A stretch of DNA of 29,279 bases from a virus, in the IMG/VR virus record IMGVR_UViG_3300025652_000362, positions 1-29,279 of that record; one strand, given 5' to 3'. A program made the position numbers and the translations under genes. The first letter of the stretch is position 1. The number at the start of each line of letters is the position of its first letter. This document shows, piece after piece, positions 3,983-24,106 of this stretch. Below the pieces are notes generated by a model. The model saw only the letters and a list, made by a program, of their open reading frames with translations, ran no database searches and had not been told where the DNA came from.

Positions 3983-4695
3983 ATATCTCCAAAGATAATC
4001 TTCGGCGTATCGTACTTGAAGAATATATGAAAGAAGAGGGCCTGCAGCTTGAGGCATTGAGTCAAGAAAGATATGAAGAGTTTATGGCTTGGATACAAAA
4101 GAAGGGCCCAAGACCGGACTGGCTAGACGACTATGGAACAAGCGGTAAAAGTACGCCTGCTGCGCCCCAAGTACCTCCCGTTGATATTCACGGCGCTGAA
4201 ACAGAGAAATTCCCCACAGATAACATGCCTCAGTATGACGATGTGCCTGACGAAGAAGGTGCATATGATACGGAGGAAGAGGCTGAAGTGTCGAGCCTGG
4301 AAGATCAAATTGCAGCGCTGGTACAAGGTTTGCCGCCAGAAGAAGTATCTGACTTATTCCAAGCAGTGTTCGCTCAGATTCCGGGAATAGAGATGGGCCC
4401 TGCGGAAGAAGAGCCGGAGTCTATTTATTCACCCGGATCCGAAGGGCGCCCAACCGTTGGGTTTAGAGAAATTAAGCAACTTATTCGAAAAGTATTAGAA
4501 GAAGGTCATTACCATGATATGGGCGGAGAAGATGAAATGTACAATGTTTTGGATCCCCACGGCTTCGAAAAAATGCCAGACGTCGATTTAATTGCAATGG
4601 CAGAAAAAGATGGAATTGAAGACATTATAGTTCTAGATGCCGAAGACAGCCTTGCCAATCGTGAAGAGGTAATAGCAGCACTGAAAAATGTATGA
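3979..4695 (+). CDS. Acidic tagged protein with two tag-like helices, before terminase
   Basis: A 238-residue, strongly acidic protein. It begins MNISKDNLRRIVLEEYMKEE, a member of the tag family seen at 520 and 3096. A second tag-like helix, REIKQLIRKVLEEG, lies at residues 163-176. Between them is a Pro/Asp/Glu-rich linker and a helical piece (LEDQIAALVQGLPPEEVSDLF, 21-residue region at 107-127). The C-terminal part (HDMGGEDEMYNVLDPHGF through to DLIAMAEKDGIEDIIVLD) looks like a compact domain. Both neighbours overlap by 4 nt through ATGA, so translation is coupled to the terminase. Small terminase, head core component and regulator are all possible; none is shown. Confidence 0.6.
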   Translation: MNISKDNLRRIVLEEYMKEEGLQLEALSQERYEEFMAWIQKKGPRPDWLDDYGTSGKSTPAAPQVPPVDIHGAETEKFPTDNMPQYDDVPDEEGAYDTEEEAEVSSLEDQIAALVQGLPPEEVSDLFQAVFAQIPGIEMGPAEEEPESIYSPGSEGRPTVGFREIKQLIRKVLEEGHYHDMGGEDEMYNVLDPHGFEKMPDVDLIAMAEKDGIEDIIVLDAEDSLANREEVIAALKNV

Positions 4696-6275
4696 GTTTC
4701 AAGTTAGACAAGAAACAACAAGTTAAGGAAATGCTCCGGTGCGGTAAAGACCCGGTTTATTTCCTTAAAACCTACGCCCGTATATCTCACCCGATGCACG
4801 GGTTAATTCTTTTTGACACATACGATTTTCAAGATACACTTTTAAAAGACTTTAATGACTACCGCTTTAACGTTATTCTAAAAGCGCGCCAGCTAGGAAT
4901 CTCTACGATTACAGCCGGCTACATTGTTTGGCTGATGCTCTTTCACCGTGACAAGGCAATCCTTGTCATGGCAACTAAGTTTGCCACTGCTGGTAACTTG
5001 GTTAAGAAAGTCAAGAACATCATGCGGAATATCCCCGACTGGTTAAAGATTGCCACCATTACAGTAGATAACCGAACTTCTTTCGAGTTGTCGAATGGTT
5101 CGTCGATTAAAGCAGCTTCTACCTCTGGGGACGCCGGCCGCTCTGAAGCACTGTCTCTCTTGGTCCTTGATGAGGCAGCCCATATTGAGGGACTAGAAGA
5201 ACTGTGGACTGGTCTGTATCCCACACTATCAACCGGTGGTCGATGCATCGCGCTGTCTACTCCGAACGGTGTTGGTAATTGGTTTCATAAAACCTGTACT
5301 GACGCTGACGCTGACGCAAATAACTTCAACCTAACAACTTTGCCATGGGATGTGCACCCCGACAGAGATGCAGAGTGGTATAAGAAAGAAACTAGAAATA
5401 TGTCCAAGCGACAAATCGCTCAAGAGCTAGAATGTAACTTCAATACCTCTGGTGAGACTGTTATTGATCCAGAATGCATGGAATATTTACACGCCACAAT
5501 GAGAGAGCCCAAACACAGGACTGGCTTTGATAGAAACTTTTGGATATGGGAAGACTTTGATCCCACGTGCAACTATCTAATGGTCGCCGATGTCGCTCGC
5601 GGCGATGGGGCCGACTACTCAACCTTCCAAATTATCAAGCTAGAAACACTTGAGGTAGTTGGAGAATATCAAGGAAAGCCTTCTTTGGATATGTATGCTG
5701 GGATGCTAAACCAAATCGGCCGAGAGTTTGGCAGTGCTATGTTGGTAGTGGAAAACAATAATGTTGGATACTCTGTGTTAACTAAACTTATGGAATATGA
5801 ATATCCAAATGTATATCATTCAATTAAGTCGACACATGAATATATCGAGCAACATCAAGCCGAAGCAATTAACTCCGCGGTACCCGGATTTACCACGTCG
5901 ATGAAAACAAGACCACTTATCATTGCGAAATTAGAAGAGTTTATCAGAAATAAACTAATTACCATATATTCATCTCGCACAATTAATGAAATGAAAACAT
6001 TTATTTGGAGGAATGGTAGACCCCAAGCAATGAAAGGATACCATGATGATCTGATCATGGCATTAGCAATCGCTTGTTGGGTTAGAGATACGGCGATTCA
6101 ATCAAGCGCAAGAGATTTAAACTATCAAAAGGCATTTGTAAATGCCATAGTAACCAGCAAAACTACAATGAACACACAAATAAATGGACAACACGGCTAC
6201 AAAAAAGACAATATCTTTGATAAAATGAGTGAAGCAGATAAATTATATAAACAATACCAATGGATTATAAAGTGA
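4692..6275 (+). CDS. terL: Terminase large subunit (T4 gp17-like)
   Basis: The motor that cuts and pumps genome DNA into the prohead. The 527 residues hold both domains. In the ATPase domain, ARQLGIST (65-72) is the Walker A motif, LVLDEAA (157-163) the Walker B with its catalytic Glu, and STPNG (189-193) the coupling motif. In the RNase H-fold nuclease domain, acidic residues occur at MVADVARGDG (D300), VVENNN (E354) and HDDLIMALA (D452, D453). Length is somewhat shorter than T4 gp17 (610). The start is coupled to the previous gene by ATGA and has no obvious SD of its own. A short Asp-Ala run (TDADADADAN, about 203-210) comes from a GACGCT hexanucleotide repeat near 5300. The portal gene follows after 8 nt. 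Confidence 0.95.
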   Translation: MSFKLDKKQQVKEMLRCGKDPVYFLKTYARISHPMHGLILFDTYDFQDTLLKDFNDYRFNVILKARQLGISTITAGYIVWLMLFHRDKAILVMATKFATAGNLVKKVKNIMRNIPDWLKIATITVDNRTSFELSNGSSIKAASTSGDAGRSEALSLLVLDEAAHIEGLEELWTGLYPTLSTGGRCIALSTPNGVGNWFHKTCTDADADANNFNLTTLPWDVHPDRDAEWYKKETRNMSKRQIAQELECNFNTSGETVIDPECMEYLHATMREPKHRTGFDRNFWIWEDFDPTCNYLMVADVARGDGADYSTFQIIKLETLEVVGEYQGKPSLDMYAGMLNQIGREFGSAMLVVENNNVGYSVLTKLMEYEYPNVYHSIKSTHEYIEQHQAEAINSAVPGFTTSMKTRPLIIAKLEEFIRNKLITIYSSRTINEMKTFIWRNGRPQAMKGYHDDLIMALAIACWVRDTAIQSSARDLNYQKAFVNAIVTSKTTMNTQINGQHGYKKDNIFDKMSEADKLYKQYQWIIK

Positions 6276-6283
6276 GAAAATAA

Positions 6284-8299
6284 ATGGCCAGCAAACCTAC
6301 ACACAACCCCAAGAATCAACAATCGGACTTATTCAAATCTTTAACTAGATTGTTCTCGGGCCCTATAATTAATTATAGATCACAGTCCGGCCGCCGCATT
6401 AGGCGCCAGCACCTAGATAAGTTCTCTAGCAGATTTAAATCAGCCTCTGGTCAGCAGTTTAAGAAATCTCTATACAATCCGTTAGATCAAATTTCAACGA
6501 ATGCTATTCAGAATCAACAACGCGCTGAGCGTTATATTGACTTCGACCAGATGGAGTACATGCCAGAGATTGCATCGTCTCTTGATATTTATGCTGATGA
6601 GATGACCACTTATTCTGACCTGCGGCCAATGTTAAATATCAAATGCGCCAACGAAGAGATAAAAGCAGTGTTGGGAATTCTTTATGAGAACATTTTGAAC
6701 GTTCAATACAACCTTTTTGGTTGGTCGCGCACAATGTGCAAGTACGGAGACTTTTTCCTGTATCTAGACATCGACGACAAATACGGCGTTCAATCTGTTA
6801 TCGCGCTACCATCACCAGAAATTGAAAGACTTGAGGGCCAAGACACCACTAATCCTAACTATCTTCAATATCAATGGAACTCTGCAGGAGTCACTTTTGA
6901 AAACTGGCAGATTGCACACTTCCGCGTGCTTGGCAACGATAAGTATGCTCCATACGGAACATCTATTTTAGAGCCCGCCCGACGCATCTGGCGCCAGCTA
7001 ACGTTGATGGAGGATGCCATGATGGCTTATCGCGTCGTACGCTCCTCAGAGCGTCGTGTGTTCAAGATTGATGTTGGTGCTGTGCCTCCACAAGATGTAG
7101 AGCAATACATGCAGAAGATCGTTACTCAGTTAAAAAGAAATTCAGTAGTTGATGCCAGCACGGGTCGAGTTGATTTAAGGTATAACCCAATGTCAATCGA
7201 GGAAGATTACTTCATTCCCACGCGCGCCGGCTCGGCAACAGATATTCAAACACTGGCCGGCGCCACCAACATTACGGCAATCGACGACGTTAAATATCTT
7301 CGAGACAAGTTATTTTCTGCTCTGAAGGTACCTCAATCCTACCTTACAATGGGTGAGGGCGCCACCGAAGATAAAACCACATTAGCACAAAAGGATATCC
7401 GTTTCTCAAGAACCATCCAAAGGCTGCAAAGGGTTGTAATATCAGAACTAGAAAAGATTGGTATTATCCATCTTTATACTTTGGGCTTCCGCGGCGATGA
7501 TCTGCTGGCGTTTAAACTGTCGTTAAACAATCCCTCGAAGATAGCAGAGCTTCAAGAAATTGAGCACTGGAAATCCAAGTTCGATATCGCCGCTTCGGCT
7601 ACCGAGGGCTTTTTCTCTCGCCGTTGGGTTTCTGACAACATTTTCGGCCTGTCCCACGAAGAGTTTACTCGTAATCAACGAGAAATGTACTATGATAGGA
7701 AACATGACGCTGCGCTTCAACAAGTGGCAGAGGCCGCTGCAGCCGGTGAAGCCGGCAGTGCACTTGGTGGTGACATGGGAGGCGACCTTGGTGGAGAACT
7801 TGAGGCAGATCCTGGAGCAGAAGAGGTACCAGCAGCAGATGTTGGCGGCTTGGACGCCGATGCCCCTGACGATGCCCCCGCCGGCGACGACTCCCCACTT
7901 CTCGCAATACCCCCGGGAAGCCGCCCATCCAAAAGATTAACACCAGGAGAAAAAATGAAACCTAGAATAACCCCTGGCGCCAAAGGCAAAGTATATACTC
8001 CCACCAAGACAGATTCTCGGCCACAAGGCGCCCGTACTCGCAATTTAAAGAGCATGGGTAGCACCGAGATTACTCCCCGAACCACGCTACCAGGCCGCGA
8101 TGCCCTAAGTGCTTTGGGCAGGGGTGTTGTAGAAACATCCCAGGGAACAGGCTTTTATGAAGAACAGGAGCCTACTTATTCTTTGAAAGACCGGAATCAA
8201 GAAAAACAAATTCTTGAAGTAAATCAATCGGTTCGTCAACTTGTTGAAATCCTAGATAAAAAAGATAAATCATTAACGGAGCAAAAAAATGAAGATTAA
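6284..8299 (+). CDS. gp20: Portal protein (T4 gp20-like)
   Basis: The dodecameric ring at one capsid vertex through which DNA enters and to which the neck attaches. Of 671 residues, about 1-475 resemble the T4 gp20 family. Hallmarks are RRIWRQLTLMEDAMMAYRVV (233-252) followed by RSSERRVFKIDVG (253-265), and the segment EDYFIPTR (307-314) to DDVKYLRDKLFSALKVP (334-350). After that comes an unusual C-terminal extension: an Ala/Gly/Asp-rich low-complexity run (about 480-540), a basic Pro/Thr/Arg region (about 545-610), and a final charged helix (about 630-671). T4 gp20 is 524 residues, so the extension accounts for the extra length. The 3' end overlaps the next gene by 11 nt. Confidence 0.93.
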   Translation: MASKPTHNPKNQQSDLFKSLTRLFSGPIINYRSQSGRRIRRQHLDKFSSRFKSASGQQFKKSLYNPLDQISTNAIQNQQRAERYIDFDQMEYMPEIASSLDIYADEMTTYSDLRPMLNIKCANEEIKAVLGILYENILNVQYNLFGWSRTMCKYGDFFLYLDIDDKYGVQSVIALPSPEIERLEGQDTTNPNYLQYQWNSAGVTFENWQIAHFRVLGNDKYAPYGTSILEPARRIWRQLTLMEDAMMAYRVVRSSERRVFKIDVGAVPPQDVEQYMQKIVTQLKRNSVVDASTGRVDLRYNPMSIEEDYFIPTRAGSATDIQTLAGATNITAIDDVKYLRDKLFSALKVPQSYLTMGEGATEDKTTLAQKDIRFSRTIQRLQRVVISELEKIGIIHLYTLGFRGDDLLAFKLSLNNPSKIAELQEIEHWKSKFDIAASATEGFFSRRWVSDNIFGLSHEEFTRNQREMYYDRKHDAALQQVAEAAAAGEAGSALGGDMGGDLGGELEADPGAEEVPAADVGGLDADAPDDAPAGDDSPLLAIPPGSRPSKRLTPGEKMKPRITPGAKGKVYTPTKTDSRPQGARTRNLKSMGSTEITPRTTLPGRDALSALGRGVVETSQGTGFYEEQEPTYSLKDRNQEKQILEVNQSVRQLVEILDKKDKSLTEQKNED

Positions 8300-9651: not shown

Positions 9652-10188
9652 ATGCCTGACATGAAATTGATATTAGAAAGATGGGACAGCTATCTCATTT
9701 TCGAAGAGGATACTCTGGCACAACTTAAAGATGATCCTGCAGCGGTGGAAGAGTTGGCAGACGATGTCTCGCGCGTTAAGGATAGAAAAAGACTGCAAGC
9801 AATTTTAAATGCGCTAGCGGCCGATCCCGAAGTGCTGCAGGTGGTTGATGCACTCAAGGAACTTGCACAAGAGGCTGATGACGTTCCTACCGATGTGGAG
9901 GAGGGGCTATCCGACGACTTCCTCAAGCTCTCGGCTCAGGGGTACCTTGGCGCCCAGAATTTATTGAACACTGAAGCCGCCCGAAAAATAATGAAGGTGG
10001 CACCACCGCTGTTGGCTTTGGGTCTTATCGCCTTCAAACTAACGAGTGCCGGCGGCATGGATCCTGATGACGGTGGCATGCTGTCAACAATTTTAAAAGC
10101 TACCGGCAAGACTGACCTTGAGTCAGTCCTCGGTGTCATAGGCGCCGGAACCGAAGGAGCCGTAACGGAGAAGAAATGGAACTACTAA
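9652..10188 (+). CDS. Tagged head-cluster protein with hydrophobic segment
   Basis: A 178-residue protein with AAGGAT at 9641-9646 before the ATG. The N-terminus MPDMKLILERWDSYLIFEE is a different tag type, resembling in layout the capsid-targeting start of T4 internal proteins (MKTYQEFIAE). It contains I7-L8-E9 and I16-F17-E18, both (L/I)-x-E sites. The region to about residue 90 is acidic and helical (LKDDPAAVEELADDVSRV). A hydrophobic stretch at about 118-131 (APPLLALGLIAFKL) could be a membrane helix, or the core of a bundle. The C-terminus is Gly-rich. Overlaps the next gene by 13 nt. Likely a prohead core or internal protein by inference; function unknown. Confidence 0.6.
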   Translation: MPDMKLILERWDSYLIFEEDTLAQLKDDPAAVEELADDVSRVKDRKRLQAILNALAADPEVLQVVDALKELAQEADDVPTDVEEGLSDDFLKLSAQGYLGAQNLLNTEAARKIMKVAPPLLALGLIAFKLTSAGGMDPDDGGMLSTILKATGKTDLESVLGVIGAGTEGAVTEKKWNY

Positions 10189-10529: not shown

Positions 10530-11141
10530 ATGGGTAAGAAGCTATTAAGAGAGTATTACGCACTGTGCGAAGGCGGCGTTTGCCAGGACCTTTTGACCGA
10601 GGAAGAGAAGCGTTACGTCGCAGATGGCGGTATGATTTTATCTGGCATCATGCAAATGACTGAAACCCAGAATGGTAATGGTCGAGTGTATCCACACAAA
10701 ACAATGGTCAGAGAAGTTAAGAACTACCAAAAACTTGTACAAGAAAACCGCGCCCTTGGAGAACTCGATCATCCGGATGATTCAGTTATTAACCTTAAGA
10801 ACGCCTCCCACATGGTCACTGAGATCTGGATGGATGGCCAAAAGGTTATGGGAAAAATGAAAATCCTTGAGACCCCATCGGGCAAGATTCTCAAAGAACT
10901 GGTTAACGGAGGGGTTACGGTAGGCGTCTCCTCCAGGGGTATGGGCTCAGTAAGCGAGCAGTCCGGACAAACCATGGTTGAAGATGATTTCCAGTTAATA
11001 TGTTTTGACATGGTCTCGGAGCCTTCGACGCCCGGCGCGTTTATGATGAGAGAGGCAAAAGACTTAGATGTGTCGCAGGTTTTTACAAAGGCCGATCGCA
11101 TCAATCGTTTATTGAATGAGGTCTTAGATGAACAAGAGTGA
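10530..11141 (+). CDS. gp21: Prohead core protease (T4 gp21-like, family S80)
   Basis: The maturation protease that degrades the scaffold and trims capsid proteins after (L/I)-x-E. The 203 residues carry the expected serine-protease landmarks: QNGNGRVYP (48-56), GELDHPDDS with H81, and VGVSSRGMGS (131-140) with S134/S135, followed by CFDMVSEPSTPGA (158-170). H81 and one of the two serines are the likely catalytic pair. Length is close to T4 gp21 (212). The N-terminus contains LLRE (5-8), itself an L-x-E site, and the C-terminus LLNEVLDE has two more, consistent with self-processing. The stop overlaps the next gene by 14 nt. Confidence 0.9.
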   Translation: MGKKLLREYYALCEGGVCQDLLTEEEKRYVADGGMILSGIMQMTETQNGNGRVYPHKTMVREVKNYQKLVQENRALGELDHPDDSVINLKNASHMVTEIWMDGQKVMGKMKILETPSGKILKELVNGGVTVGVSSRGMGSVSEQSGQTMVEDDFQLICFDMVSEPSTPGAFMMREAKDLDVSQVFTKADRINRLLNEVLDEQE

Positions 11142-11536: not shown

Positions 11537-11782
11537 ATGAAGAAGAAAGCAAATGTAATTATCAAGCCGAATCATTCAAGAGAATCGGCTGAAAGAATGA
11601 TCAGAAGGTTTATAAAGAAAACCAAAAAAGAAAGAATTGTAGAAGAAGTTAGAGAGCGCTCTCACTATAAAAAGCCTTCAATAAAGAAAAGAGAGAAGAG
11701 AGAGAGAGCGCAACGCGCTAAATATCGTGAAGAACAAAAACGTATTAGAGCACAACAAAGGCGCGCTAGAAAAAATAAGTGA
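11537..11782 (+). CDS. rpsU: Virus-encoded ribosomal protein bS21 homologue
   Basis: An 81-residue, very basic protein. bS21 sits on the 30S platform beside the 3' end of 16S rRNA and aids initiation on structured or SD-containing mRNAs. The landmarks fit: ESAERMIRRFIKKTKK (16-31) corresponds to the bS21 first helix with the RRF core, RIVEEVRERSHYKKPS (33-48) to the conserved turn ending Y-x-KPS, and KKREKRERAQRAKYREE (50-66) to the Arg/Lys-rich second helix. E. coli bS21 has 71 residues; the extra length is an N-terminal lead and the C-terminal tail. It lies between head genes and the fibre block, 7 nt after the previous stop. Phage bS21 genes are known in some marine phages such as pelagiphages. 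Confidence 0.85.
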   Translation: MKKKANVIIKPNHSRESAERMIRRFIKKTKKERIVEEVRERSHYKKPSIKKREKRERAQRAKYREEQKRIRAQQRRARKNK

Positions 11783-11790
11783 CTATTTAT
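11782..11790 (+). promoter_or_regulatory. ACTATTTAT element, candidate late promoter (site 1)
   Basis: ACTATTTAT immediately follows the bS21 stop codon and lies 32 nt before the first fibre-block ATG. The same element, with small changes, occurs before 16330, 21143, 24945 and 27695. It resembles an AT-rich late-promoter box in size, but the sequence is not T4's TATAAATA on this strand. Confidence 0.45.
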
Positions 11791-11822
11791 ATTGTAAATC
11801 AAATTTTTAAGGAGTTTTTGTA

Positions 11823-12263
11823 ATGGGAAGTTGGGAGACAGGACAAGGATTAAATTCAGTCGGCGCCTATCAAGTAAGCGGCCGGCCATTCGCCAGCGGC
11901 AGTATTGTCGCACTACATGGCAACCGACCTGGCGGATATGAGGTGGTTTTCCCCTACGTGACACGCTGGTTCAAGGTCATTAACAATGATATAGGGAACA
12001 AGTGCAAAGTTGCGTTTACTCTTTCTGGAATGACCGGTTCGAACAACTACTTTACAGTGCAGTCAGTTAGTGGTTCGGTCACTGAAGCGTTCGGTAGTAC
12101 GTCTAATGACGCTACTAGCGGTATTTTGGAGCTAAAGGTGTCATCTATTTGGATATCTGGTTCCACAAATGTTGATGTCGTTGCCGGATTAACCTCCATC
12201 GCAACAATCCGTACAGCCACCGCAACAGGTCCTAACTGGTCAGGTTCAGCAGGAGTAGGATAG
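11823..12263 (+). CDS. Small virion/fibre-associated beta protein
   Basis: A 146-residue protein with AAGGAG at 11809-11814 before the ATG. It starts MGSWETGQGLNSVGAYQVSG and is Gly/Ser/Thr/Val-rich throughout, with alternating hydrophobic residues typical of a beta sandwich. GRPFASGSIVAL followed by YEVVFPYVTRWFKVIN is a landmark I recall from marine phage structural proteins. No membrane segment. It opens the fibre block behind an ACTATTTAT element and shares with 12992 and 14083 a similar leader (GGAG, T-rich, TAATGG). Likely a virion protein, perhaps a fibre adaptor; the exact place in the particle is unknown. Confidence 0.6.
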   Translation: MGSWETGQGLNSVGAYQVSGRPFASGSIVALHGNRPGGYEVVFPYVTRWFKVINNDIGNKCKVAFTLSGMTGSNNYFTVQSVSGSVTEAFGSTSNDATSGILELKVSSIWISGSTNVDVVAGLTSIATIRTATATGPNWSGSAGVG

Positions 12264-12267
12264 GCCC

Positions 12268-12969
12268 ATGGCGAATTTTGGCTGGGCATATATTGATTGT
12301 GATGACGCTGGTTCAGACGGCGCAGCCGCAGGTCCGACTGGATCACTTCAATTTATTAGCGGCGGTGGTGGACACACCACCGGCTCCAGCCAATTGGTAT
12401 ACTATACCGCATCTTATGGTGAGCATGTAGGTTCTTCAACGCTAGTTTTATCTGGCAACATGGTTATAACTGGCACTCTTAGCGCCAGTGTTTTTAATTA
12501 TGAAGACATCTCCATCATTGACGCAACGGGTTCCACGTTCTTTGGTAACACCATCGACGATATCCACTCTAGGACCGGTAGCTTAGAGATCTGGTCCGGC
12601 ACAACGCCGGTCCTTTCAGCAAGCTCCTACAGTAAGCAAACTTTTGTTAAGGGTTTTGGCGGAGGTTACCTTCAGATTAGCGGAAGCCATCAAACTGCGT
12701 CAACCTCTGATTACATTCTAGGTGTTGCCACTCCATTCACGGGTGGCACAGACCCCGTAAGAATAACTGTGCCAAGTCCAGCGACTTTCGCTGCTGGCGC
12801 CATACTCGTAATTAAAGACGAACTCGCTGCTCGCGGCGGCTCCTCCATTATAATAACTCGCTCTGTAGATGATACATATACATTTGATAGTGCTGCGTTC
12901 TACACACTAACTGGCTCATCGCCAGCAATTAGTTTGTATTCAAACGGAACTAACTGGTTCGTCTTCTAA
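12268..12969 (+). CDS. Fibre-type virion protein with shared C-terminal domain
   Basis: A 233-residue Gly/Ser/Thr-rich protein, 4 nt after the previous gene with AGGAG in the preceding gene's last codons. The N-terminus is MANFGWAYIDCDDAGSDG. The middle has LVLSGNMVITGTLSASVF, the SG-T-SAS type of beta repeat found in phage fibres and also in the next genes. The C-terminal 90 residues form a domain shared with the three following fibre proteins: YILGVATP ... VRITVPSPATF ... GAILVIKDE ... IIITRSVDDTYTFD ... ISLYSNGTNWFVF. Probably a trimeric fibre or fibre-base protein. Host-receptor contact is possible but not shown. Confidence 0.65.
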   Translation: MANFGWAYIDCDDAGSDGAAAGPTGSLQFISGGGGHTTGSSQLVYYTASYGEHVGSSTLVLSGNMVITGTLSASVFNYEDISIIDATGSTFFGNTIDDIHSRTGSLEIWSGTTPVLSASSYSKQTFVKGFGGGYLQISGSHQTASTSDYILGVATPFTGGTDPVRITVPSPATFAAGAILVIKDELAARGGSSIIITRSVDDTYTFDSAAFYTLTGSSPAISLYSNGTNWFVF

Positions 12970-12991
12970 TTAAACTTAGAGGAGTTTTATA

Positions 12992-13969
12992 ATGGCATTC
13001 AATCAGATGTCTGGCACTGTGTTCTTGCCTGCAGAGCTTCGACCTAGACTAGATATGGTCCAATCGACCATCCTTTCTGGCAATTTAAGCACCTCTGATG
13101 CTGCTGATGTCATTAACATTCCTCGTGTTTCAAACGCTACGAATAATTCGCTTGTAACAAACGTAGGTGGTGACGCAAACACACTAACTTGCGAGAGTAA
13201 CTTAACGTTTGATGGTACGTCCCTGGACGTTACAGGCGATTTAACGGTCTCAGCGGGCACTACACTGTACGGGCCGATAAATCTCTCTAGTAGTACTGGT
13301 CTCACCATCACAGGCTCCATATACCCCTCTGGAAGCGCCGCATTCTCATTAGGCTCAGAGACCCAAAGATGGGCTGAGGTTTTTGTTGGGACTGGTTCGG
13401 TTCACCTGGGTCCTAACTGTTCGATTAGCTCTGCAGATCATAAAATAATGATGAACAAGACACTGGTTGTCACCGGCGCCTTGTCTGCATCAACATTTGT
13501 ATCGGCGTCAACTTTTTATGGAGACGGAAGCAACTTAACAAATGTGAAAGCAGATCATGTTGTCGCCGAGGGCCCGGTAAACTCAATTCAATTTCATGAT
13601 CCAACCGACTCCGACTTAACTGGATCCTCAAACCTAACATTTCAGAACGATGTTTTGTCGGTTGGCGGCGGGCTAACTCTCAATAGAAGATACACGGATT
13701 CTTCCATCACCGTTTCGGTAACTGATTACTATGTTGGAGTCGGAACAGTCAGCAATCCAGTAGTCCTAACATTGCCCGACGCAGCCCTCATGGGCAACGG
13801 TCAGACCTACGTTGTAAAAGACGAAGGTGGAGCCGCTCACTCAAACAATATAACAATTACCGCACATGGTTCGCAAACAATCGACAATCAAAATTCGATT
13901 GTTTTGGAGTCACCTTATGCATCGATTCAGCTTTATTGTAACGGCTCTGATAAATACTTTATTGGATAA
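12992..13969 (+). CDS. Tail-fibre-type protein, paralogue 2
   Basis: A 325-residue protein with GAGGAG at 12979-12984 before the ATG. It starts MAFNQMSGTVFLPAELRPRL. Fibre-type motifs follow: LTFDGTSLDVTGDLTVSAG, ASTFYGDGSNLTNV (about 169-182) and NSIQFHDPTDSDLTGSSNL, a pattern also seen in the 16330 and 17498 proteins. The last 90 residues are the shared C-terminal domain: DYYVGVGTVSNPVVLTLP ... QTYVVKDEGGAA ... ITITAHGSQTIDNQNSIVLE ... IQLYCNGSDKYFIG. Structural protein, probably part of a tail or baseplate fibre. A 113-nt gap with a long hairpin separates it from the next gene. Confidence 0.7.
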   Translation: MAFNQMSGTVFLPAELRPRLDMVQSTILSGNLSTSDAADVINIPRVSNATNNSLVTNVGGDANTLTCESNLTFDGTSLDVTGDLTVSAGTTLYGPINLSSSTGLTITGSIYPSGSAAFSLGSETQRWAEVFVGTGSVHLGPNCSISSADHKIMMNKTLVVTGALSASTFVSASTFYGDGSNLTNVKADHVVAEGPVNSIQFHDPTDSDLTGSSNLTFQNDVLSVGGGLTLNRRYTDSSITVSVTDYYVGVGTVSNPVVLTLPDAALMGNGQTYVVKDEGGAAHSNNITITAHGSQTIDNQNSIVLESPYASIQLYCNGSDKYFIG

Positions 13970-14001
13970 AAATTCTTCGACCCTAGGCCACTACTTATTA
14001 C

Positions 14002-14054
14002 CGAGGGTTTCGCTGTACGCATATACATTTGTGTATACCTACGGCTGATCCTCG
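14002..14054 (+). other. Long imperfect hairpin between fibre genes
   Basis: Pairings nest around a TTTG loop (14028-14031): TATACA with TGTATA (14022-14027 and 14032-14037), GTA with TAC, GC with GC, and an outer CGAGG with CCTCG (14002-14006 and 14050-14054), with small internal loops. No T-run follows, so it does not look like a terminator. It lies 28 nt before the ATG of the 710-residue fibre gene. RNA processing, message stabilisation or translational control are possible. Confidence 0.4.
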
Positions 14055-14059
14055 TAACA

Positions 14060-14068
14060 ACATTTATT
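14060..14068 (+). promoter_or_regulatory. ACATTTATT, variant of the recurring element
   Basis: ACATTTATT lies directly before the GGAGG ribosome site of the 14083 gene and after the hairpin at 14002-14054. An identical nonamer occurs at 24224-24232 before the 24263 gene. It may be a variant of the ACTATTTAT element or simply AT-rich leader sequence. Confidence 0.25.
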
Positions 14069-14082
14069 GGAGGATTTTATAA

Positions 14083-16215
14083 ATGGCTTACAAATTTCAA
14101 TTCGGCTCCGCGATCATGTCCGGCGCCCTTACACAGGAAGGGGATCTTAATATTCTCGATGATGAAGGTGCCGGCGGCGCCCTCAAAATCGGTGGTACTC
14201 AAGTTATCTCCGCTCTTCGAGCAGTTTCTGGTTCTACCTTAGACGGTCAGATCATCAACCCAGCAACAGCTATGGTCAATGTCGACACAGCGGATATCGC
14301 TGAGGGCACTCGACTTTATTACACTGACGCTCGCGCTCGCGCATCCGTCTCTGTAACAGACGCTGGTGGCGATGGCTCACTAGCATACAACAACAGCACC
14401 GGTGTTATCACTTACACCGGTCCATCGGCTGCAGAAGCCCGTGCCCACGTGTCCGTAACAGACGCCGGCGGTGACGGCTCCTTAGCCTACAACAACGGTA
14501 CCGGTGTATTCACCTACACTGGACCAAGTGCTGCAGAAGCTCGCCAACACTTAAGCGCTTCTTCAACAACCTCAATCAGTGCTTCGTACAGCAAAGCAAC
14601 TGGTATCATGACTGCTAAAGTTCAAAGCTTAACCGAATTCGATACTGGCGATCTTTCCGAAGGTTCTAACCTTTACTACACCGACGCACGTGCACGCGGT
14701 GCTATCTCCATGGAAGCTGATCGTTTTATCGCTTACAATGGTAGTTCAGGTGCATTCACAATGGATGAGACACTTTTCTCGGGTTCTGCTCGCGGTCTTA
14801 TCAGTGTAACCGATGCAGGCGGTGACGGCTCTATGGCTTACAACGCTAGCACTGGTGTTCTCACCTACACGGGTCCAAGCTCTGCTGAAGCCCGCGCACA
14901 CTTGTCTGTAACAGACGCTGGTGGTGACGGTTCTTTAGCCTACAACAACGGCACTGGTGTATTCACTTACACTGGTCCTAGCGCTACTGAGGTTCGTGCT
15001 CACTTTAGTGCATCGATGGGTCAAACCATTAGTTCTTCTTACGCTGCTGGCGTATTTGCTTCAAACTTGATGGCAACTGCTGCTGGTGATGGCCTTGGAT
15101 TCTCTTCGGGTATCCTTTCTGTCAACGTTGATGACTCTTCTATCGAAACCAATGGTGATGCAATTCGTGTCAAAGCAGCCGGTCTTACCGACGCTATGAT
15201 GAACGATGATGTTGCTACTGGTCTTGCTGGTAGCGGTCTTGTTGCTTCTAGCGGCGTAATGGCTGTTGGTGTCGACGATTCTGGTATCGAGATTAACTCT
15301 GATGCTCTTCGTCTTAAAGACAACGGTGTTACTCTTGCCAAGATGGCATCTCTGAATCGTGGTGCTATTATCTTCGGCGATTCTTCTGCTGACCCTGCAG
15401 CGCTTGCCGTTGGTTCTGCACACCAATTCTTGCAATCTGATGGTACAGACCTTGCATATGTTTCAATGAGTGGTGACGCTACATTGGCTGCAGGTGTTCT
15501 TTCAATCGGTGCTACTAAAGTTACTGATGCCATGTTGAACGATGATGCTGCTACTGGTCTTGCTGGTGTTGGTCTCTCGGCTGCTTCTGGTGTTATGGCC
15601 CTCGACCTCAACGAGCTTACTGCTGCAACAATTAACGTTGCTGCCGATAGCTTCCCTTTCGTGGATGCTGACGGTAACGTTACTCGCAAAGAAAGCATTG
15701 TTGACCTTGTGACTGGTATCGGTGGTGACGGACTTGCTGCTGTCTCTGGCGTTCTCGCCCTTGACGTCTTCGAGTTAAGTGCTGCTGCTGTTGATGTCGC
15801 TGCTGATAGCATTGCTATCGTCGACGCTAGCGATAGCAACTTCACGCGTAAAGAAAGCATTGCTGACCTTGTTACTGCTATGGCAGGCCCAGGTCTCTCG
15901 GCTTCTGGTGGCGTACTCACAGTTGAATCTGCTGCAACACCTGCAGCACGTGGAGATGCTAATGCAACTCTCACTGAAGGCTTCAACTTTGGTAGTGCTA
16001 CTCTAACTGCTGACCGCACATGGACTCTTCCAGCCTCTCCGAGTGCTGGTGATGTCGTTCGCGTTAAGGCTCCTCAGGATCTTGGTGGCAACCGCCTCAT
16101 TATCTCTAAGGCCGGTTCTCATGCAATCGATGGTGCTGACACTATCGATCTTGAATCACCGGGCGCCGCGATCAACATGATCTATGTTGGTAGCAACGCA
16201 TGGCTAATCTTCTAG
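14083..16215 (+). CDS. Large repeat-containing tail fibre protein
   Basis: A 710-residue protein with GGAGG at 14069-14073. After an N-terminal head (MAYKFQFGSAIMSGALTQEG) come two LYYTDARAR motifs (near residues 79 and 198). There are four 34-residue repeats of the type SVTDAGGDGSLAYN-TGV-TYTGPSA-EAR at 90-123, 124-157, 241-274 and 275-308. A second repeat family covers about 370-620 (TDAMMNDDVATGLAGSGL, TDAMLNDDAATGLAGVGL, then VAADS-x(5)-DA-x(5)-RKES twice). The C-terminus is the shared fibre domain (VRVKAPQDLGGNRLII ... HAIDGADTIDLESPGAAI ... AWLIF). Codon use is dominated by GCT, GGT, CTT and GTT in the 3' two thirds, unlike its neighbours but like the capsid gene. Probably an abundant, long trimeric fibre. 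A terminator follows. Confidence 0.8.
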   Translation: MAYKFQFGSAIMSGALTQEGDLNILDDEGAGGALKIGGTQVISALRAVSGSTLDGQIINPATAMVNVDTADIAEGTRLYYTDARARASVSVTDAGGDGSLAYNNSTGVITYTGPSAAEARAHVSVTDAGGDGSLAYNNGTGVFTYTGPSAAEARQHLSASSTTSISASYSKATGIMTAKVQSLTEFDTGDLSEGSNLYYTDARARGAISMEADRFIAYNGSSGAFTMDETLFSGSARGLISVTDAGGDGSMAYNASTGVLTYTGPSSAEARAHLSVTDAGGDGSLAYNNGTGVFTYTGPSATEVRAHFSASMGQTISSSYAAGVFASNLMATAAGDGLGFSSGILSVNVDDSSIETNGDAIRVKAAGLTDAMMNDDVATGLAGSGLVASSGVMAVGVDDSGIEINSDALRLKDNGVTLAKMASLNRGAIIFGDSSADPAALAVGSAHQFLQSDGTDLAYVSMSGDATLAAGVLSIGATKVTDAMLNDDAATGLAGVGLSAASGVMALDLNELTAATINVAADSFPFVDADGNVTRKESIVDLVTGIGGDGLAAVSGVLALDVFELSAAAVDVAADSIAIVDASDSNFTRKESIADLVTAMAGPGLSASGGVLTVESAATPAARGDANATLTEGFNFGSATLTADRTWTLPASPSAGDVVRVKAPQDLGGNRLIISKAGSHAIDGADTIDLESPGAAINMIYVGSNAWLIF
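14350..14553 (+). repeat. Tandem pair of 102-nt coding repeats (copies 1 and 2)
   Basis: Two adjacent 102-nt units (14350-14451 and 14452-14553), each coding for 34 residues that begin SVTDAGGDGSLAYNN and continue through TYTGPSAAEAR. They sit in frame in the 710-residue fibre gene. Confidence 0.9.
14803..15006 (+). repeat. Tandem pair of 102-nt coding repeats (copies 3 and 4)
   Basis: Second pair of the same 34-residue unit (14803-14904 and 14905-15006), 249 nt after the first pair. Between the pairs lie the second LYYTDARAR motif and about 50 other residues, so the larger unit (motif plus pair) is also partly duplicated. Confidence 0.9.
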
Positions 16216-16251
16216 GATTATATAATCTTAGAGGTTTTTCTATACCTTGGG

Positions 16252-16281
16252 TGCCCCCTTTATGGGGGCATCCTCTTTTTT
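16252..16281 (+). terminator. Rho-independent terminator after the 710-residue fibre gene
   Basis: Perfect 7-bp GC-rich stem TGCCCCC / GGGGGCA (16252-16258 and 16264-16270), loop TTTAT, then TCCTCTTTTTT. It lies 36 nt after the stop of the fibre gene and before the element at 16303. Confidence 0.85.
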
Positions 16282-16302
16282 ATGCTTAATAACTAAAAAT
16301 AA

Positions 16303-16311
16303 TCTATTTAT
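16303..16311 (+). promoter_or_regulatory. TCTATTTAT element, candidate late promoter (site 2)
   Basis: One-base variant of ACTATTTAT, located 22 nt after the terminator T-run and 18 nt before the ATG at 16330. Its position between a terminator and a gene supports a promoter function. Confidence 0.45.
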
Positions 16312-16329
16312 TGAAGATGGGGAAACAAA

Positions 16330-17457
16330 ATGGCCTACAATGTTTTAAAGGGTATCGTAGAAGGATCGGTTGATCAGCACGCGGACCAAGAAATCTCAGG
16401 GATTAAAGTGTTTAAAAACACCATTAGCGCCAGCGTTTTTTATGACACTGACGCAGAGAGTCCTTGCGCTACAATAAAAGATTTAGCAATAAAAGAAATT
16501 GTAGGAGGCAGTAAAAATTCAGTTCTGTCTCTTGCTGAAGAAGGTAAGGTTAACGCAAACTATAATCTTACGTTTGATGGAGAGACTCTGAAGACTAAAA
16601 ACATAACAGCCGACGCGTTTGTTGGTTCTGGGGCCGGCCTCACGGAAATACCGACCAATAAATTTAAAGAGAAAATATCGGCAGATTCCATAGAACACAG
16701 CCATGGCATACATTCAGTTCGCGGCACCCTGCAAGTAAAAGCCCACGCTGGTCTTTCAATCGAAGACAACGCCGTTGGAGTCTCGCTAGCGAAAAATGGG
16801 GCATTGTGTATAAAAGATAGTCACCTTGTTGTTGATCCAACCAAGACAGAGACAATAACCGCGGCTGGTCAAAATTTAAGTGACAATGACTTGTTGCTTG
16901 TTTCTGATACTTCAAGATCCTCTGTGGCTCACACCACGTTAAGTAATTTTTATGAAGGCTACATTAAGAATAAGGTTTCCCATGCCGCTGGTACTACAAA
17001 CGAAGTACAGTTGAAGGGAAAATCTGGCTTCAACTCGTCTTCTAAGTTTTCGTATAACACGGATAAAAACACCTTAAACATTGATGGCAAAATAGCTGCC
17101 GCAACCCTTCACGTAGAAGGAGACTTGCGTTGCGATGGCGCCGTAATAAACAGCATAAAAACAATTAGCACCCGAATGTATGAAGTACAAAGCGAAGATT
17201 ACACTTTGCTGTGTGACACCGTAGATAGTCCCGTGACTGTCATGTTACCACCAGCCTGCAACCACCCAGGTCGCATGCTTAATATTAAAAAAGCGTGCAC
17301 GAACAAATACAAACTTAACTCTTACCCAGTTGTCCTGAAAGTACAAGAAGGGACGATTGACTTGACCGAACAGATAGTACTCAAGACTAACTATGCTTTG
17401 CGTGCAGTCCAGTCTGACGGAAATAGTTGGTGGATTATTGGCGCCAAGGGCACTTGA
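16330..17457 (+). CDS. Tail-fibre-type protein, paralogue 4
   Basis: A 375-residue protein starting MAYNVLKGIVEGSVDQHADQ, followed by EISGIKVFKNTISASVFYDT, a start I recall from marine T4-like phage structural proteins. The middle has LTFDGETLKTKNITADAFVG and GSGAGLTEIP, the same DG-x-GLT fibre motif as its neighbours, and TNEVQLKGKSGFNSSSKFSY. The last 90 residues follow the shared C-terminal pattern with more divergence (VTVMLPPACNHPGRMLNIKK ... VVLKVQEGTIDLTEQIVLKT ... GNSWWIIGAKGT). Codon use is AT-richer and more Lys-rich than in the 14083 gene. It is the only gene between its upstream terminator and the 17498 gene. Probable fibre or baseplate-associated virion protein. Confidence 0.65.
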   Translation: MAYNVLKGIVEGSVDQHADQEISGIKVFKNTISASVFYDTDAESPCATIKDLAIKEIVGGSKNSVLSLAEEGKVNANYNLTFDGETLKTKNITADAFVGSGAGLTEIPTNKFKEKISADSIEHSHGIHSVRGTLQVKAHAGLSIEDNAVGVSLAKNGALCIKDSHLVVDPTKTETITAAGQNLSDNDLLLVSDTSRSSVAHTTLSNFYEGYIKNKVSHAAGTTNEVQLKGKSGFNSSSKFSYNTDKNTLNIDGKIAAATLHVEGDLRCDGAVINSIKTISTRMYEVQSEDYTLLCDTVDSPVTVMLPPACNHPGRMLNIKKACTNKYKLNSYPVVLKVQEGTIDLTEQIVLKTNYALRAVQSDGNSWWIIGAKGT

Positions 17458-17497
17458 CACAAGAATAATATACTTATTATAAAAAAGGAAATAATAA

Positions 17498-19933
17498 ATG
17501 GCATATAACTCACAAAAAGGTTCGCAACATACCGGCGACATTCAATACGAAGGAGATCCGAACGACGTTCAGATCGATTTCGAGAATGATCAGATTATAC
17601 TGAGGACCGGCGGCGCACCACGTGTATCGGTTGTCAATACAGAATTGTCAGCCTCTGGAATCTTTAGGAATGTTGGCTCTATTTCGGGGTCCGGCGATGC
17701 CGCTCTTTCGGGCGCCGTCCATGCCACCGCTTTTTATGGAGATGGTTCGGGTCTCACATCTGTGGGTGCAATATCCACATCTGGCTCGGCACGCGTATAT
17801 AGCGTGACCGGCCTGGAGACCTCTGGGTACCTTAAAGTAAGTGGTTCCAGCACTCTTGGTGCAGTAACTGCAACTACAATAGGCGCCACCACTTATTCTG
17901 GATCTTCTACCTTTCACAATGTTGGAGCGGCAACGTTCAGCGGCCCACTGTCCACAACTAGCTCAGTTACTTCTGCTGGAATTTTTACAACAGACCTCTC
18001 TGCCTCATCTGTTATACGTTCAGTGGGTTCTATCTCGGGATCGGGTGATGTTGCGGTTACCGGCGCAATTCACGCCACAACTTTCCATGGCTCCGGCGCC
18101 GGTATTACCGGCTTGTTCACCTCGTTCAGTTTGGCCGGCGATGGTGGCTCGTCTCAAACTATTGAAAACGGCAACACACTGACAATCGCCGGCGGTACTG
18201 GGCTTACATCTACGGCTGCTGTTACTGATACCGTTAGTATTGCTTTGGATAATACCTCGGTAAGTGCGGGTTCATACAATAGTGCGAATATTACTGTCGA
18301 CGCTCAAGGTCGCCTGACAGCGGCCTCCAACGGCGCGCTACCCACATCGCTTTCGGGAACGACTGCTCAGTTGACAACCGGCGTCGAGACCTCTGGCTAT
18401 CTTAAGGTAAGTGGCTCCAGTACTCTCGGCGCAGTAACTGCCACTACGATCTCTGCATCCAGTACGCTTCAAGCTGTGGGTGCTACCACCCTTGGGAGCA
18501 CATTGTCGGTTACCGGTGCTATAACAGCGCCATCATTAACCGGCTCGATGGGCTTATATAGTCTGACCAATGGAACGCTACAGGTAGGTCACGAAGAAGT
18601 CGGTACAGGAGTTGCAGTTAAGATCTCCACCACTACAGACACCAGTGTTCCCCTCTTGGTCAAAACCCCAAGCAATGAAATCCTATTGGCGGCAACCGGT
18701 TCCGGCAAGGTACTCGTAGGTGGGATGCACCTTGATGCAAAATTGAATATTAGTGGTTCAGACACAAGTAAGCTAATCTCGGCTGCCGGAACTTCTCGCG
18801 GCGTAGCGTTTTATGTAAGTGCAAGTGGGGAAACCTTCGTCTCTGGCAATATTATTATGCAACAAGCTGAGCCAAGGATATTTTTCAGCAACAGTGTTGG
18901 CACAGGCTTAGGGTTCTTAGGATACAACTCATCTAATAATATTATTGTGCAAAACAACACAAGTAATAAACATGTTGTGTTCAAAACCAATGACAACGGA
19001 ACAATCAAAGAAGGCTTCCGAATCGATGGCGCGGTACCAGAAGTGGTAGTAAACCAGGGCGCTGACTCACTAGTTGATTTCCGTGTCGAGTCTGATAACA
19101 ATACACACATGCTATTTGTAGACGGTAGCGAGAATAAAGTTGGAATTAATACGAATGCACCACCAGAAGCCTTTAGTGTTGTAGGGAATATCTCTGGTTC
19201 GGGTACACTGCAAAACGTAGGGGCTACTATTTTAGGAAATAACTTGAACGTCTCAGGCTCTACGATCATGGAATCATTGACCGCAAATAATATTACAAAT
19301 GTTGGGCTATATTCTGGATCTTCAACCTTCCACAATGTAGGCCACTCAAGCTTCGGCGGCAATATTAACGCTAGTGGTTCCGTTTCCTCTGCTGGTGTTC
19401 TTTCGACCGGCCTAATCTCCGGCTCGAATGGTCTCCACATCGATGCTTTTGCTACGATGGGTGCGACACTAAGCGTGTCTGGTGCCATAAGTGTTGGAAT
19501 CCCTAGCGCCAAAACCGCTCTTGATATACACCATAACCCCACGGCTTTGGCTAACGACACTGGTGGAGGAGAGGTGGTCAAATTTGGAACAGGAACCTTG
19601 ACAACGGGCAAGTTGTATTATCTACACAGTGGATCTTCATGGGAACAAGCGGCAGGCGTTGGTGAGGCCTCAGGCGGCCTAGGAATGTTGGGAATCGCTC
19701 TAGGTTCTAACCCAGCGGTGAACGGAATGCTTATACGTGGATTCTTTGATGCGCACTCATATCTTAGTGGAACCTTTGTTGCTGGTACAACTCTGTATGT
19801 ATCGGCCCCGGGCTACATTACAACCATGCGCCCATCGGGATCTACCGAAATAGTCCGCGTTTTGGGCACATGCACTACCACCGGAAATGTAATATACTTT
19901 AATCCTAGTCCGGACTATTTGGTGGTGACATAG
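17498..19933 (+). CDS. Large modular tail fibre/adhesin protein
   Basis: An 811-residue protein with AAAAAGGAAATAATAA before the ATG. It begins MAYNSQKGSQHTGDIQYEGD and is built of diverged Ser/Gly/Thr beta modules: NVGSISGSGDAALSGAVHAT with FYGDGSGLTSVG, recurring as SVGSISGSGDVAVTGAIHAT with FHGSGAGITGLF; SGYLKVSGSSTLGAVTATTI occurs twice; and FHNVG with SAG occurs twice. The segment at about 410-560 is less repetitive (VGINTNAPPEAFSVVGNISG is a fibre motif also common in chaperone-tailed fibres). The C-terminus (GKLYYLHSGSSWEQA ... LGIALGSNPAVNGMLIRGFF) is a small domain I recall from marine phage fibres and differs from the shared domain of the other paralogues. Stop overlaps the next start by 1 nt. 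Confidence 0.75.
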   Translation: MAYNSQKGSQHTGDIQYEGDPNDVQIDFENDQIILRTGGAPRVSVVNTELSASGIFRNVGSISGSGDAALSGAVHATAFYGDGSGLTSVGAISTSGSARVYSVTGLETSGYLKVSGSSTLGAVTATTIGATTYSGSSTFHNVGAATFSGPLSTTSSVTSAGIFTTDLSASSVIRSVGSISGSGDVAVTGAIHATTFHGSGAGITGLFTSFSLAGDGGSSQTIENGNTLTIAGGTGLTSTAAVTDTVSIALDNTSVSAGSYNSANITVDAQGRLTAASNGALPTSLSGTTAQLTTGVETSGYLKVSGSSTLGAVTATTISASSTLQAVGATTLGSTLSVTGAITAPSLTGSMGLYSLTNGTLQVGHEEVGTGVAVKISTTTDTSVPLLVKTPSNEILLAATGSGKVLVGGMHLDAKLNISGSDTSKLISAAGTSRGVAFYVSASGETFVSGNIIMQQAEPRIFFSNSVGTGLGFLGYNSSNNIIVQNNTSNKHVVFKTNDNGTIKEGFRIDGAVPEVVVNQGADSLVDFRVESDNNTHMLFVDGSENKVGINTNAPPEAFSVVGNISGSGTLQNVGATILGNNLNVSGSTIMESLTANNITNVGLYSGSSTFHNVGHSSFGGNINASGSVSSAGVLSTGLISGSNGLHIDAFATMGATLSVSGAISVGIPSAKTALDIHHNPTALANDTGGGEVVKFGTGTLTTGKLYYLHSGSSWEQAAGVGEASGGLGMLGIALGSNPAVNGMLIRGFFDAHSYLSGTFVAGTTLYVSAPGYITTMRPSGSTEIVRVLGTCTTTGNVIYFNPSPDYLVVT
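17816..17880 (+). repeat. 65-nt coding repeat in fibre gene, copy 1
   Basis: Codes for ETSGYLKVSGSSTLGAVTAT plus one residue. It recurs at 18386-18450, exactly 570 nt downstream, with mainly third-position differences. Confidence 0.8.
18386..18450 (+). repeat. 65-nt coding repeat in fibre gene, copy 2
   Basis: Second copy of 17816-17880. Differences are mostly silent, so the protein unit has been kept while the DNA diverged. Confidence 0.8.
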
Positions 19934-22326: not shown

Positions 22327-22337
22327 AAGGAGGTGAT
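22327..22337 (+). promoter_or_regulatory. Full-length Shine-Dalgarno of the capsid gene
   Basis: AAGGAGGTGAT is an 11-nt perfect complement of the usual bacterial 16S rRNA 3' tail. AGGAGG ends 9 nt before the ATG at 22343. The other SDs in this window match over 4-6 nt, so this is by far the strongest. Confidence 0.85.
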
Positions 22338-22342
22338 TTAAA

Positions 22343-24106
22343 ATGTCTAGTATTATCGAAAGATTGACCGAAGGAGTTGTCAATCGTGATATGCGCGCCG
22401 AGAGCCATGCTCTTCTTTCCAAGTGGGAGAAGACCGGTCTGCTTGAGGGTCTTACAAAAGATTCCAAGCGTCAAACAATGGCGCGCCTGCTTGAAAACCA
22501 AGCAAAAGAACTGCTTCGCGAGAGCAGCACAATGGCCGGTGGCGATGTTGAGGGCTTTGCAGCCGTCGCGTTCCCCATCGTACGTCGTGTATTCGCAGGC
22601 TTGATCGCAAACGATCTTGTCTCTGTTCAGCCCATGAGCTTACCCTCAGGTCTGATTTTCTTCCTTGACTTTACTTTTTCCAAACAGGGAGCAGGTCTTG
22701 CTCGTTTGGGATACACTACAGGTTCAGATGGCGCAGAGCCATCCATCTATGGTGGTGATAAGGTCGGTTCTCAGATCACTGGCGGTGTTGACATCTCCGG
22801 TGCTCAAGCAGAACGTGGACCCCGTAACCTCAACAACGGTTACTCTTCCCCAACAGCATCTGTTGACAGAACTATTACTTTCCTAACAGCAAGTACCTAT
22901 AGTTCTTCAGCAGGTAGCATCCCTCTCCTTACGGAGTTCGATGCTGAGCTTGAGTCTCAGTCTGGTACAGCAAATGTTGCTATTGGTACCATTGATACCT
23001 CGGGCCTCACTAACTGGAACTCGGAGGATCTTGTAGCAGTCACAGCGGTTTCTACAACTTCTGGTTCACACGGAAGGCTGTTCCACTCTGGTGCCCTCGG
23101 TCAAACCGGTGGCTCGGTTCAGTTGCGTCGTCTCACACGATACAGCGGTTCCTCTGATTCTGTCGCATACGTTGTTTTCGCTTCGTATGACGGTGCGATC
23201 ACCAACGCACACCTTCATGGCTTGATGACTGCTTCTGCAATCAGCTTCACTTATCCAATCAAGGACAATTTGGAGTCAAGTGACGCCCTCGGCTCTGTCG
23301 TCGGTGCTTCCCCATGGGGCTTGGAGAACAATCAGAACATCCCAGAGATCGACATTAAGGTCGATTCCGTGGCTGTGACGGCTGTAACCAAGAAGCTCAA
23401 GGCTAAGTGGACTCCGGAGTTAGGTCAAGACCTTAACGCCTACCACAACCTTGATGCAGAGGTTGAGTTGACTAGCATTCTCTCTGAGCAAATCGCTCTT
23501 GAGATTGACCGCGAGATCCTTGAGGATCTTGTACGTGGCGCTACCGCTGGTACTAAGTACTGGTCTCGTGCTCCAGGTCTCTTTGTCAACCGTGACACGG
23601 GTGCAGAACTCGTTTCAACCTCAGCGGCTCCAGACTTTACTGGTACCGTTTCTGAGTGGTATGAGACTCTCGTTGAGACAATCAACGATGTTTCTGCTAA
23701 CATTCACCGCAAGACTCTGCGTGGTGGTGCTAACTTCGTGGTCGTAGGCCCTGAAGTTGCCAACATCCTTGAGTTCACCGCTGGCTTCCGTGCTAACGTC
23801 ACTGCTGACGATGAGCGCGGCGATATCGGTGCTGTGAAGGTTGGTGCTCTCACCAAGAAGTTCGACGTATATGTCGATCCTTACTTCATGCGTAACCTGA
23901 TCCTTGTTGGTCGTCGTGGTTCCTCTTTCCTTGAAAGCGGATATGTGTATGCACCTTACGTGCCCCTGCAGACCACTCCAACCATCTTTGGACCAGAGGA
24001 CTTCGTACCTCGTAAGGGCGTGATGACTCGTTACGCCAAGAAGATGGTGCGTCCTGATATGTACGGTCTCGTTATCGTACGTGGCATGATCGGAGAGTCC
24101 GCTTAA
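22343..24106 (+). CDS. gp23: Major capsid protein (T4 gp23-like)
   Basis: The HK97-fold shell subunit, 587 residues against 521 in T4 gp23. Recognisable segments are FPIVRRVFAGLIANDLVSVQ (77-96), PMSLPSGLIFFLDFTFSK (97-114), the later KKLKAKWTPELGQDLNAYH and LEVDREI-type helix (LALEIDREILEDL region), and VVGPEVANILEF. The C-terminal part includes YVDPYFMRNLILVGRRGS and APYVPLQTTPT. The N-terminus is a predicted 60-residue propeptide ending ELLRE, where L58-R59-E60 is a good prohead-protease site. Codons are strongly biased to GCT, CGT, GGT, CTC/CTT and GTT, as in highly expressed genes. It has an 11-nt Shine-Dalgarno and a strong terminator directly after it. Confidence 0.95.
   Translation: MSSIIERLTEGVVNRDMRAESHALLSKWEKTGLLEGLTKDSKRQTMARLLENQAKELLRESSTMAGGDVEGFAAVAFPIVRRVFAGLIANDLVSVQPMSLPSGLIFFLDFTFSKQGAGLARLGYTTGSDGAEPSIYGGDKVGSQITGGVDISGAQAERGPRNLNNGYSSPTASVDRTITFLTASTYSSSAGSIPLLTEFDAELESQSGTANVAIGTIDTSGLTNWNSEDLVAVTAVSTTSGSHGRLFHSGALGQTGGSVQLRRLTRYSGSSDSVAYVVFASYDGAITNAHLHGLMTASAISFTYPIKDNLESSDALGSVVGASPWGLENNQNIPEIDIKVDSVAVTAVTKKLKAKWTPELGQDLNAYHNLDAEVELTSILSEQIALEIDREILEDLVRGATAGTKYWSRAPGLFVNRDTGAELVSTSAAPDFTGTVSEWYETLVETINDVSANIHRKTLRGGANFVVVGPEVANILEFTAGFRANVTADDERGDIGAVKVGALTKKFDVYVDPYFMRNLILVGRRGSSFLESGYVYAPYVPLQTTPTIFGPEDFVPRKGVMTRYAKKMVRPDMYGLVIVRGMIGESA

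Follow-up and report, generated by a model that had tools for sequence, protein, structure and literature searches.

We propose that this viral fragment encodes a functional ribosomal protein bS21 that was acquired once, became a near-core gene in the head block of its phage group, is made late in infection, and exchanges with the host's bS21 on the 30S subunit, a reading to which we assign a probability of roughly 0.6. The window analyzed here is the entire 29,279-base IMG/VR fragment, and it contains a single bS21 gene (Table 1). The open reading frame is complete and starts with ATG, and three profile libraries confirm its predicted product as bS21. Against Pfam PF01165 (Ribosomal_S21) it scores 35.0 bits where the gathering threshold is 27 (E 1.1e-8), with residues 15-62 aligned to positions 7-54 of the 55 in the profile; it reaches 37.3 bits against the NCBIfam 'equivalog' TIGR00030 (S21p, cut-off 28.95); and it matches PHROG 21469, 'ribosomal protein S21'. 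bS21 chains from solved ribosomes also resemble it (best E 2.6e-6). A preliminary description of this DNA had claimed a complete bS21-like gene and had named a profile search as a possible refuter; that search places the gene in the bS21 family, above both the Pfam and the NCBIfam curated cut-offs. Host contamination as the source of the gene is excluded by near-identical genes in matching context on other viral contigs: on three of these (L002-L004) bS21 is 99-100% identical and sits among the same genes, and dozens of more distant contigs are arranged likewise.

Table 1. Features of the head-gene block around bS21, with the support for each assignment.
Feature	Position	Strand	Support or remark
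Terminase large subunit (TerL)	4692..6275	+	PF03237, phrog_2
Portal protein (gp20 type)	6284..8299	+	PF07230, 267 bits
Prohead protease (Peptidase S77, T4 gp21 type)	10530..11141	+	PF03420, 107 bits; phrog_207
Gene 11128, conserved hypothetical, 133 aa	11128..11529	+	No Pfam or PHROG family matched; synteny
bS21 gene (rpsU-like), 81 aa	11537..11782	+	Pfam, NCBIfam and PHROG matches; conserved core, residues 15-62
CTATTTAT(A) motif, putative promoter element for the unit that starts at gene 11823	11783..11791	+	Directly after the bS21 stop
Unknown gene 3' of bS21	11823..12263	+	SD AAGGAG; tail-fibre/adhesin-like block starts here
Major capsid protein (MCP, gp23 type)	22343..24106	+	PF07068, 244 bits

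The gene had also been described as lying inside a structural cluster, and this holds: the terminase, portal, prohead protease and major capsid genes around it all match T4-type families and all share its strand. The protease gene overlaps the start of gene 11128, and bS21 begins 7 bases after gene 11128. Homologues of gene 11128 occur at 129 viral loci, with conserved ends and a variable middle, and we consider this gene a possible candidate for a prohead core protein or a bS21 partner. Farther downstream, positions 12268-19933 of the window hold adhesin-like proteins in a row, with common segments (SGS/SASTF and VTDAGGDGSLAYNN repeats) and high variability among relatives.

A search with the bS21 protein returned 103 viral loci, 80 of which were kept. 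In the relatives that were read, the genes run from TerL and portal through the protease, gene 11128, bS21, gene 11823 and adhesin-like genes to the MCP, an order that holds as far as the contigs extend, with insertions in some relatives. Circularity was avoided by also recruiting contigs by protease and by terminase alignment, blind to bS21, and counting those that extend at least 350 bases beyond gene 11128; the protease-, TerL- and bS21-recruited sets partly overlap. bS21 follows gene 11128 in 62 of 62 protease-recruited contigs and in 20 of 22 TerL-recruited contigs, and all 12 larger records tested carry exactly one copy. Among distant contigs, L382 has no bS21 at the usual place and only a sub-threshold bS21-like match elsewhere in the record, and the 10.6 kb of L365 contain none. 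In L369, bS21 sits one gene away from its usual place. An apparent absence in L129 was rejected as a BLAST artefact, as the gene is present. bS21 is nearly fixed in the head block of this T4-like clade, though L365 and L382 show that it is not strictly so, and it is better regarded as a standing component of that block in a large, mostly unsampled group of phages than as an occasional auxiliary gene.

Judged by their sequences, the viral copies are strongly diverged from bacterial bS21. Those of the relatives score 31-42 bits against PF01165, versus 57-80 bits in twelve bacterial genomes, and the viral core reads ERMIRRFIKK where the usual bacterial form is (E/D)RALRRFKKK. Ten residues (I22, R23, F25, K27, K28, K30, K31, P47, K54 and R60) are invariant in 14 viral copies. 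Pairwise dN/dS is about 0.03-0.11 within the close group, a range drawn only from pairs with estimable dS, many pairs being synonymously saturated, and it points to strong purifying selection on bS21 in these phages. Both the identity of the gene and its retention under selection are supported. In the ribosome, bS21 folds into two main helices. An AF2 model of the window protein places helices at residues 18-42 and 47-80, the latter long, very basic and a further point of difference from bacterial copies, with a mean pLDDT of 81 and a pTM of only 0.40; a Foldseek search of this model against the PDB gave one insignificant match, to a chloroplast ribosome chain. In one relative (L043, gene start at 10001), bS21 reaches 119 aa because a 37-residue stretch is duplicated within it (AEEAKDRRYYKKPS... 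repeated). All 25 viral sequences in a 115-sequence bS21 tree cluster together with an SH-aLRT of 99, their common stem measures 0.94 changes per site, and the attachment of this clade to the bacteria is unsupported, with few columns and long branches meeting there. The tree fits one old acquisition but names no donor, and phylogeny, which had been put forward as a way to suggest the host, likewise gives a long-stemmed viral group and names none.

Two N-terminal leaders, MKLLLENWRKFLNE (9 in G001) or MKITKSQLKQIIKEE, are common to many otherwise unrelated proteins of these phages. They are borne by the window proteins at 520, 3979 and 9661 (and, by eye, 3096), and by proteins of the large relatives G001 (L211-L221) and G002 (L222-L229, L260-L261); shuffled controls yielded about none. 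The T4 capsid-targeting leader is MKTYQEFIAE. The leaders found here resemble it and end in an I/L-x-E type protease site, and they may mark proteins that are packaged in the head and injected.

The position of bS21 brings in a different explanation, in which the protein is a basic RNA- or DNA-binding derivative of bS21 that serves in the prohead core or is packaged and injected. Packaging of bS21 has been suggested by Chen et al. (PMC9723584), and its place beside the protease-11128 pair in nearly every relative, together with the strong basicity of the C-terminal helix, would suit such a role. Even so, we think it improbable, as the core motif is under strong purifying selection and still scores above curated bS21 cut-offs, and the window bS21 carries neither of the two leader types.

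Of 91 distinct bS21 3' flanks, 67 have the CTATTTAT motif after the stop codon. Counted in the window together with five relatives, 76 copies run in the sense of the genes and one runs antisense, and 41 of the 76 sense copies are intergenic, though intergenic DNA makes up only 4-7%. The form (A)CTATTTAT is present in the window at 11783, 16304, 21104 and 24918 (intergenic) and at 4421, and also in G001-G004 and G012. We interpret the motif as a putative promoter element, specific to this clade, from which the unit downstream of bS21 would start; bS21 would then be the last gene of a protease-11128-bS21 unit. The T4 late promoter TATAAATA was considered and rejected, with one antisense copy in the window, which is the chance expectation.

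Large relatives carry a wider translation and protein-quality toolkit, comprising a tmRNA, tRNAs and a chaperonin. The tmRNA (Rfam RF00023, 112-131 bits) lies at L212:9469-9890 and L226:5525-5864 in G001 and G002 and encodes the tags ANNNNNFESVRLAA and ANNNNYFEQRLAA; several tRNAs are also encoded, and the G001 chaperonin (PF00118, 200 bits) is at L220:3-1463.

Host bS21 is a loosely bound, exchangeable protein of the 30S subunit. Under our preferred reading, a single acquisition in the ancestry of this T4-like clade would have been kept in the head-morphogenesis block, and bS21 would be a late product, expressed along with the protease and core genes. It would then swap with host bS21 on 30S subunits, beside the 3' end of the 16S rRNA, and would probably keep or retune initiation for abundant late phage mRNAs. 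We infer the late timing, the entry into ribosomes and any bias toward phage mRNA; incorporation into ribosomes late in infection is the best-supported account. The bS21 of pelagiphage HTVC008M enters E. coli 70S ribosomes, as described by Mizuno et al. in 2019 (PMC6375957), which makes entry of the window protein into host ribosomes plausible. E. coli ribosomes with that protein kept only about 5% of their activity in vitro (PMC6375957), so its incorporation may depress translation instead of promoting it. This low activity, along with the departure of the viral core from the bacterial one (ERMIRRFIKK against RALRRFKKK), would fit a role in host shut-off, in which phage bS21 does not stand in for the host protein but acts as an inhibitor or discriminator that lowers initiation on host mRNAs. 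However, the gene sits in a late structural block, and at that stage the phage has a heavy ribosome demand of its own; most phage genes also carry Shine-Dalgarno (SD) sequences that use those same ribosomes. We therefore regard shut-off as rather unlikely.

In Bacteroidia, Tyr54 of bS21 stacks on A1534 and helps to hide the anti-SD, and in F. johnsoniae, losing the C-terminal part of the protein or Tyr54 raises translation from strong SDs (PMC9976891). The equivalent residue in the window, counted from the invariant proline (P47+13), is Arg60, and the position is R or K in 78 of 79 viral copies and Q in the remaining one. R or K is also usual there in bacteria outside Bacteroidia, so Arg60 indicates the kind of host and is no proven adaptation.

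SD usage was calibrated with two cultivated relatives, immuto and Mel-JY01. An SD at or below -6 kcal/mol precedes 37-58% of open reading frames in the window and in five relatives, compared with 4-13% of internal ATGs; by genes, the share is 55% of 29 in the window, 44% of 27 in Mel-JY01 (Microcystis) and 0 of 25 in immuto (Flavobacterium). Because usage in the window is high against the 0% of immuto, the host probably relies on SDs and belongs outside Bacteroidia, and Arg60 likewise argues against a Bacteroidia host. The nearest GTDB bS21s are Ignavibacteria/Marinimicrobia-like, as returned by a biased search pattern; a Marinimicrobia-like host was set aside given that bias and the little SD use in Marinimicrobia, whose loci show 15-21% against 10-16% in controls. 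A search, run without a positive control, found no close phage TerL in 245 Marinimicrobia or 395 Bacteroidota genomes. The tmRNAs of the relatives are about equally similar to those of Marinimicrobia and Bacteroidota, and their tags match none seen there. Phages with bS21 are mostly aquatic (PMC6375957), and by that analogy this clade is likely marine.

The MCP gene is preceded by the SD AAAAGGAGGTGATTT, which pairs with the 16S tail at -18.1 kcal/mol, and the sole exact AAGGAGGTGAT in the window (22327-22337) lies in an extended anti-SD-complementary leader before this gene. The preliminary description was right that the capsid gene has a strong SD, and its strength is exceptional; the suggested tie between that SD and bS21 is not supported. 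MCP SDs range from -8.2 to -18.5 kcal/mol in the 35 relatives with a readable MCP start, all of them bS21-bearing, and Mel-JY01, which also bears bS21, has an ordinary MCP SD of -6.4 kcal/mol. Strong MCP SDs are common in the clade, with an extended 16S-tail match in the window and several relatives, but since every clade contig compared has bS21, a dependence of the SD on bS21 cannot be claimed. The bS21 gene itself has a weak SD in the window (-4.2); in relatives it is moderate, with a median of -6.7.

These observations bear on the idea of a specialised ribosome, in which phage bS21 exposes the anti-SD and favours extended-SD mRNAs, above all that of the MCP, and so imposes the phage's own initiation rules. 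The extended match in the MCP leader, the R or K that nearly all viral copies have at the place of the anti-SD-blocking Tyr54 of Bacteroidia, and the F. johnsoniae results (PMC9976891) are in line with this idea. Yet R or K need not be an adaptation where it is the usual state outside Bacteroidia, the host seems to use SDs anyway, and the wide range of MCP SDs among bS21-bearing relatives, as well as the ordinary one in Mel-JY01, count against it. We consider a specialised ribosome of this kind very unlikely, and favor exchange with host bS21 late in infection.

Phage bS21, including its location beside head genes, has already been published. Chen et al. (2022) described Bacteroidetes phages, myoviruses, that carry bS21 in the head module near TerL, portal, protease and MCP, with conserved neighbour genes, and observed that late in infection it is transcribed together with structural genes (PMC9723584). 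In those phages bS21 lies on the strand opposite to the structural genes and is aromatic at the Tyr54 position in all of them (PMC9723584), whereas the window and the relatives read have bS21 on the same strand and the window has Arg60. The related Flavobacterium phage immuto is without SD-led genes, while the window clade is SD-rich. These residue and SD differences suggest that anti-SD blocking of the Bacteroidia type is not universal for phage bS21. The survey by Chen et al. covered 900 published bS21 phages, 310 of them with a prohead protease near bS21 (PMC9723584), and members of the window clade may already be among them.

Some other known copies sit elsewhere in their genomes. The Pelagibacter phage HTVC008M (AGE60443) is a marine T4-like phage with a bS21 whose incorporation into ribosomes has been shown in E. 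coli (PMC6375957); its gene is not part of the head block but lies upstream of the sliding clamp, with CobS on one side and small genes on the other, and the protein is 34% identical to that of the window over 64 aa. The cultivated Pseudomonas jumbo phages PA5oct and Paride also have an annotated bS21 (38% identity over 34 aa), but it is found among metabolic genes, Hsp20 and an ATP-dependent protease rather than structural genes. The cultivated Microcystis phage Mel-JY01 (PP395634.1) is T4-like, as is the window, with TerL 43% and MCP 37% identical. Our literature search found no paper on it, though its record annotates RpsU. This protein (WWT39311.1) is PF01165-positive, and its gene, as in the window, is on the same strand, second after the prohead protease and a few genes before the MCP. 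It differs in being 75 aa long and only about 40% identical to the window copy over 32 aa, and the gene beside it has no detectable homology to gene 11128. Being in culture and having bS21 at the equivalent position, Mel-JY01 is a possible laboratory system for the effect of phage bS21 on ribosomes.
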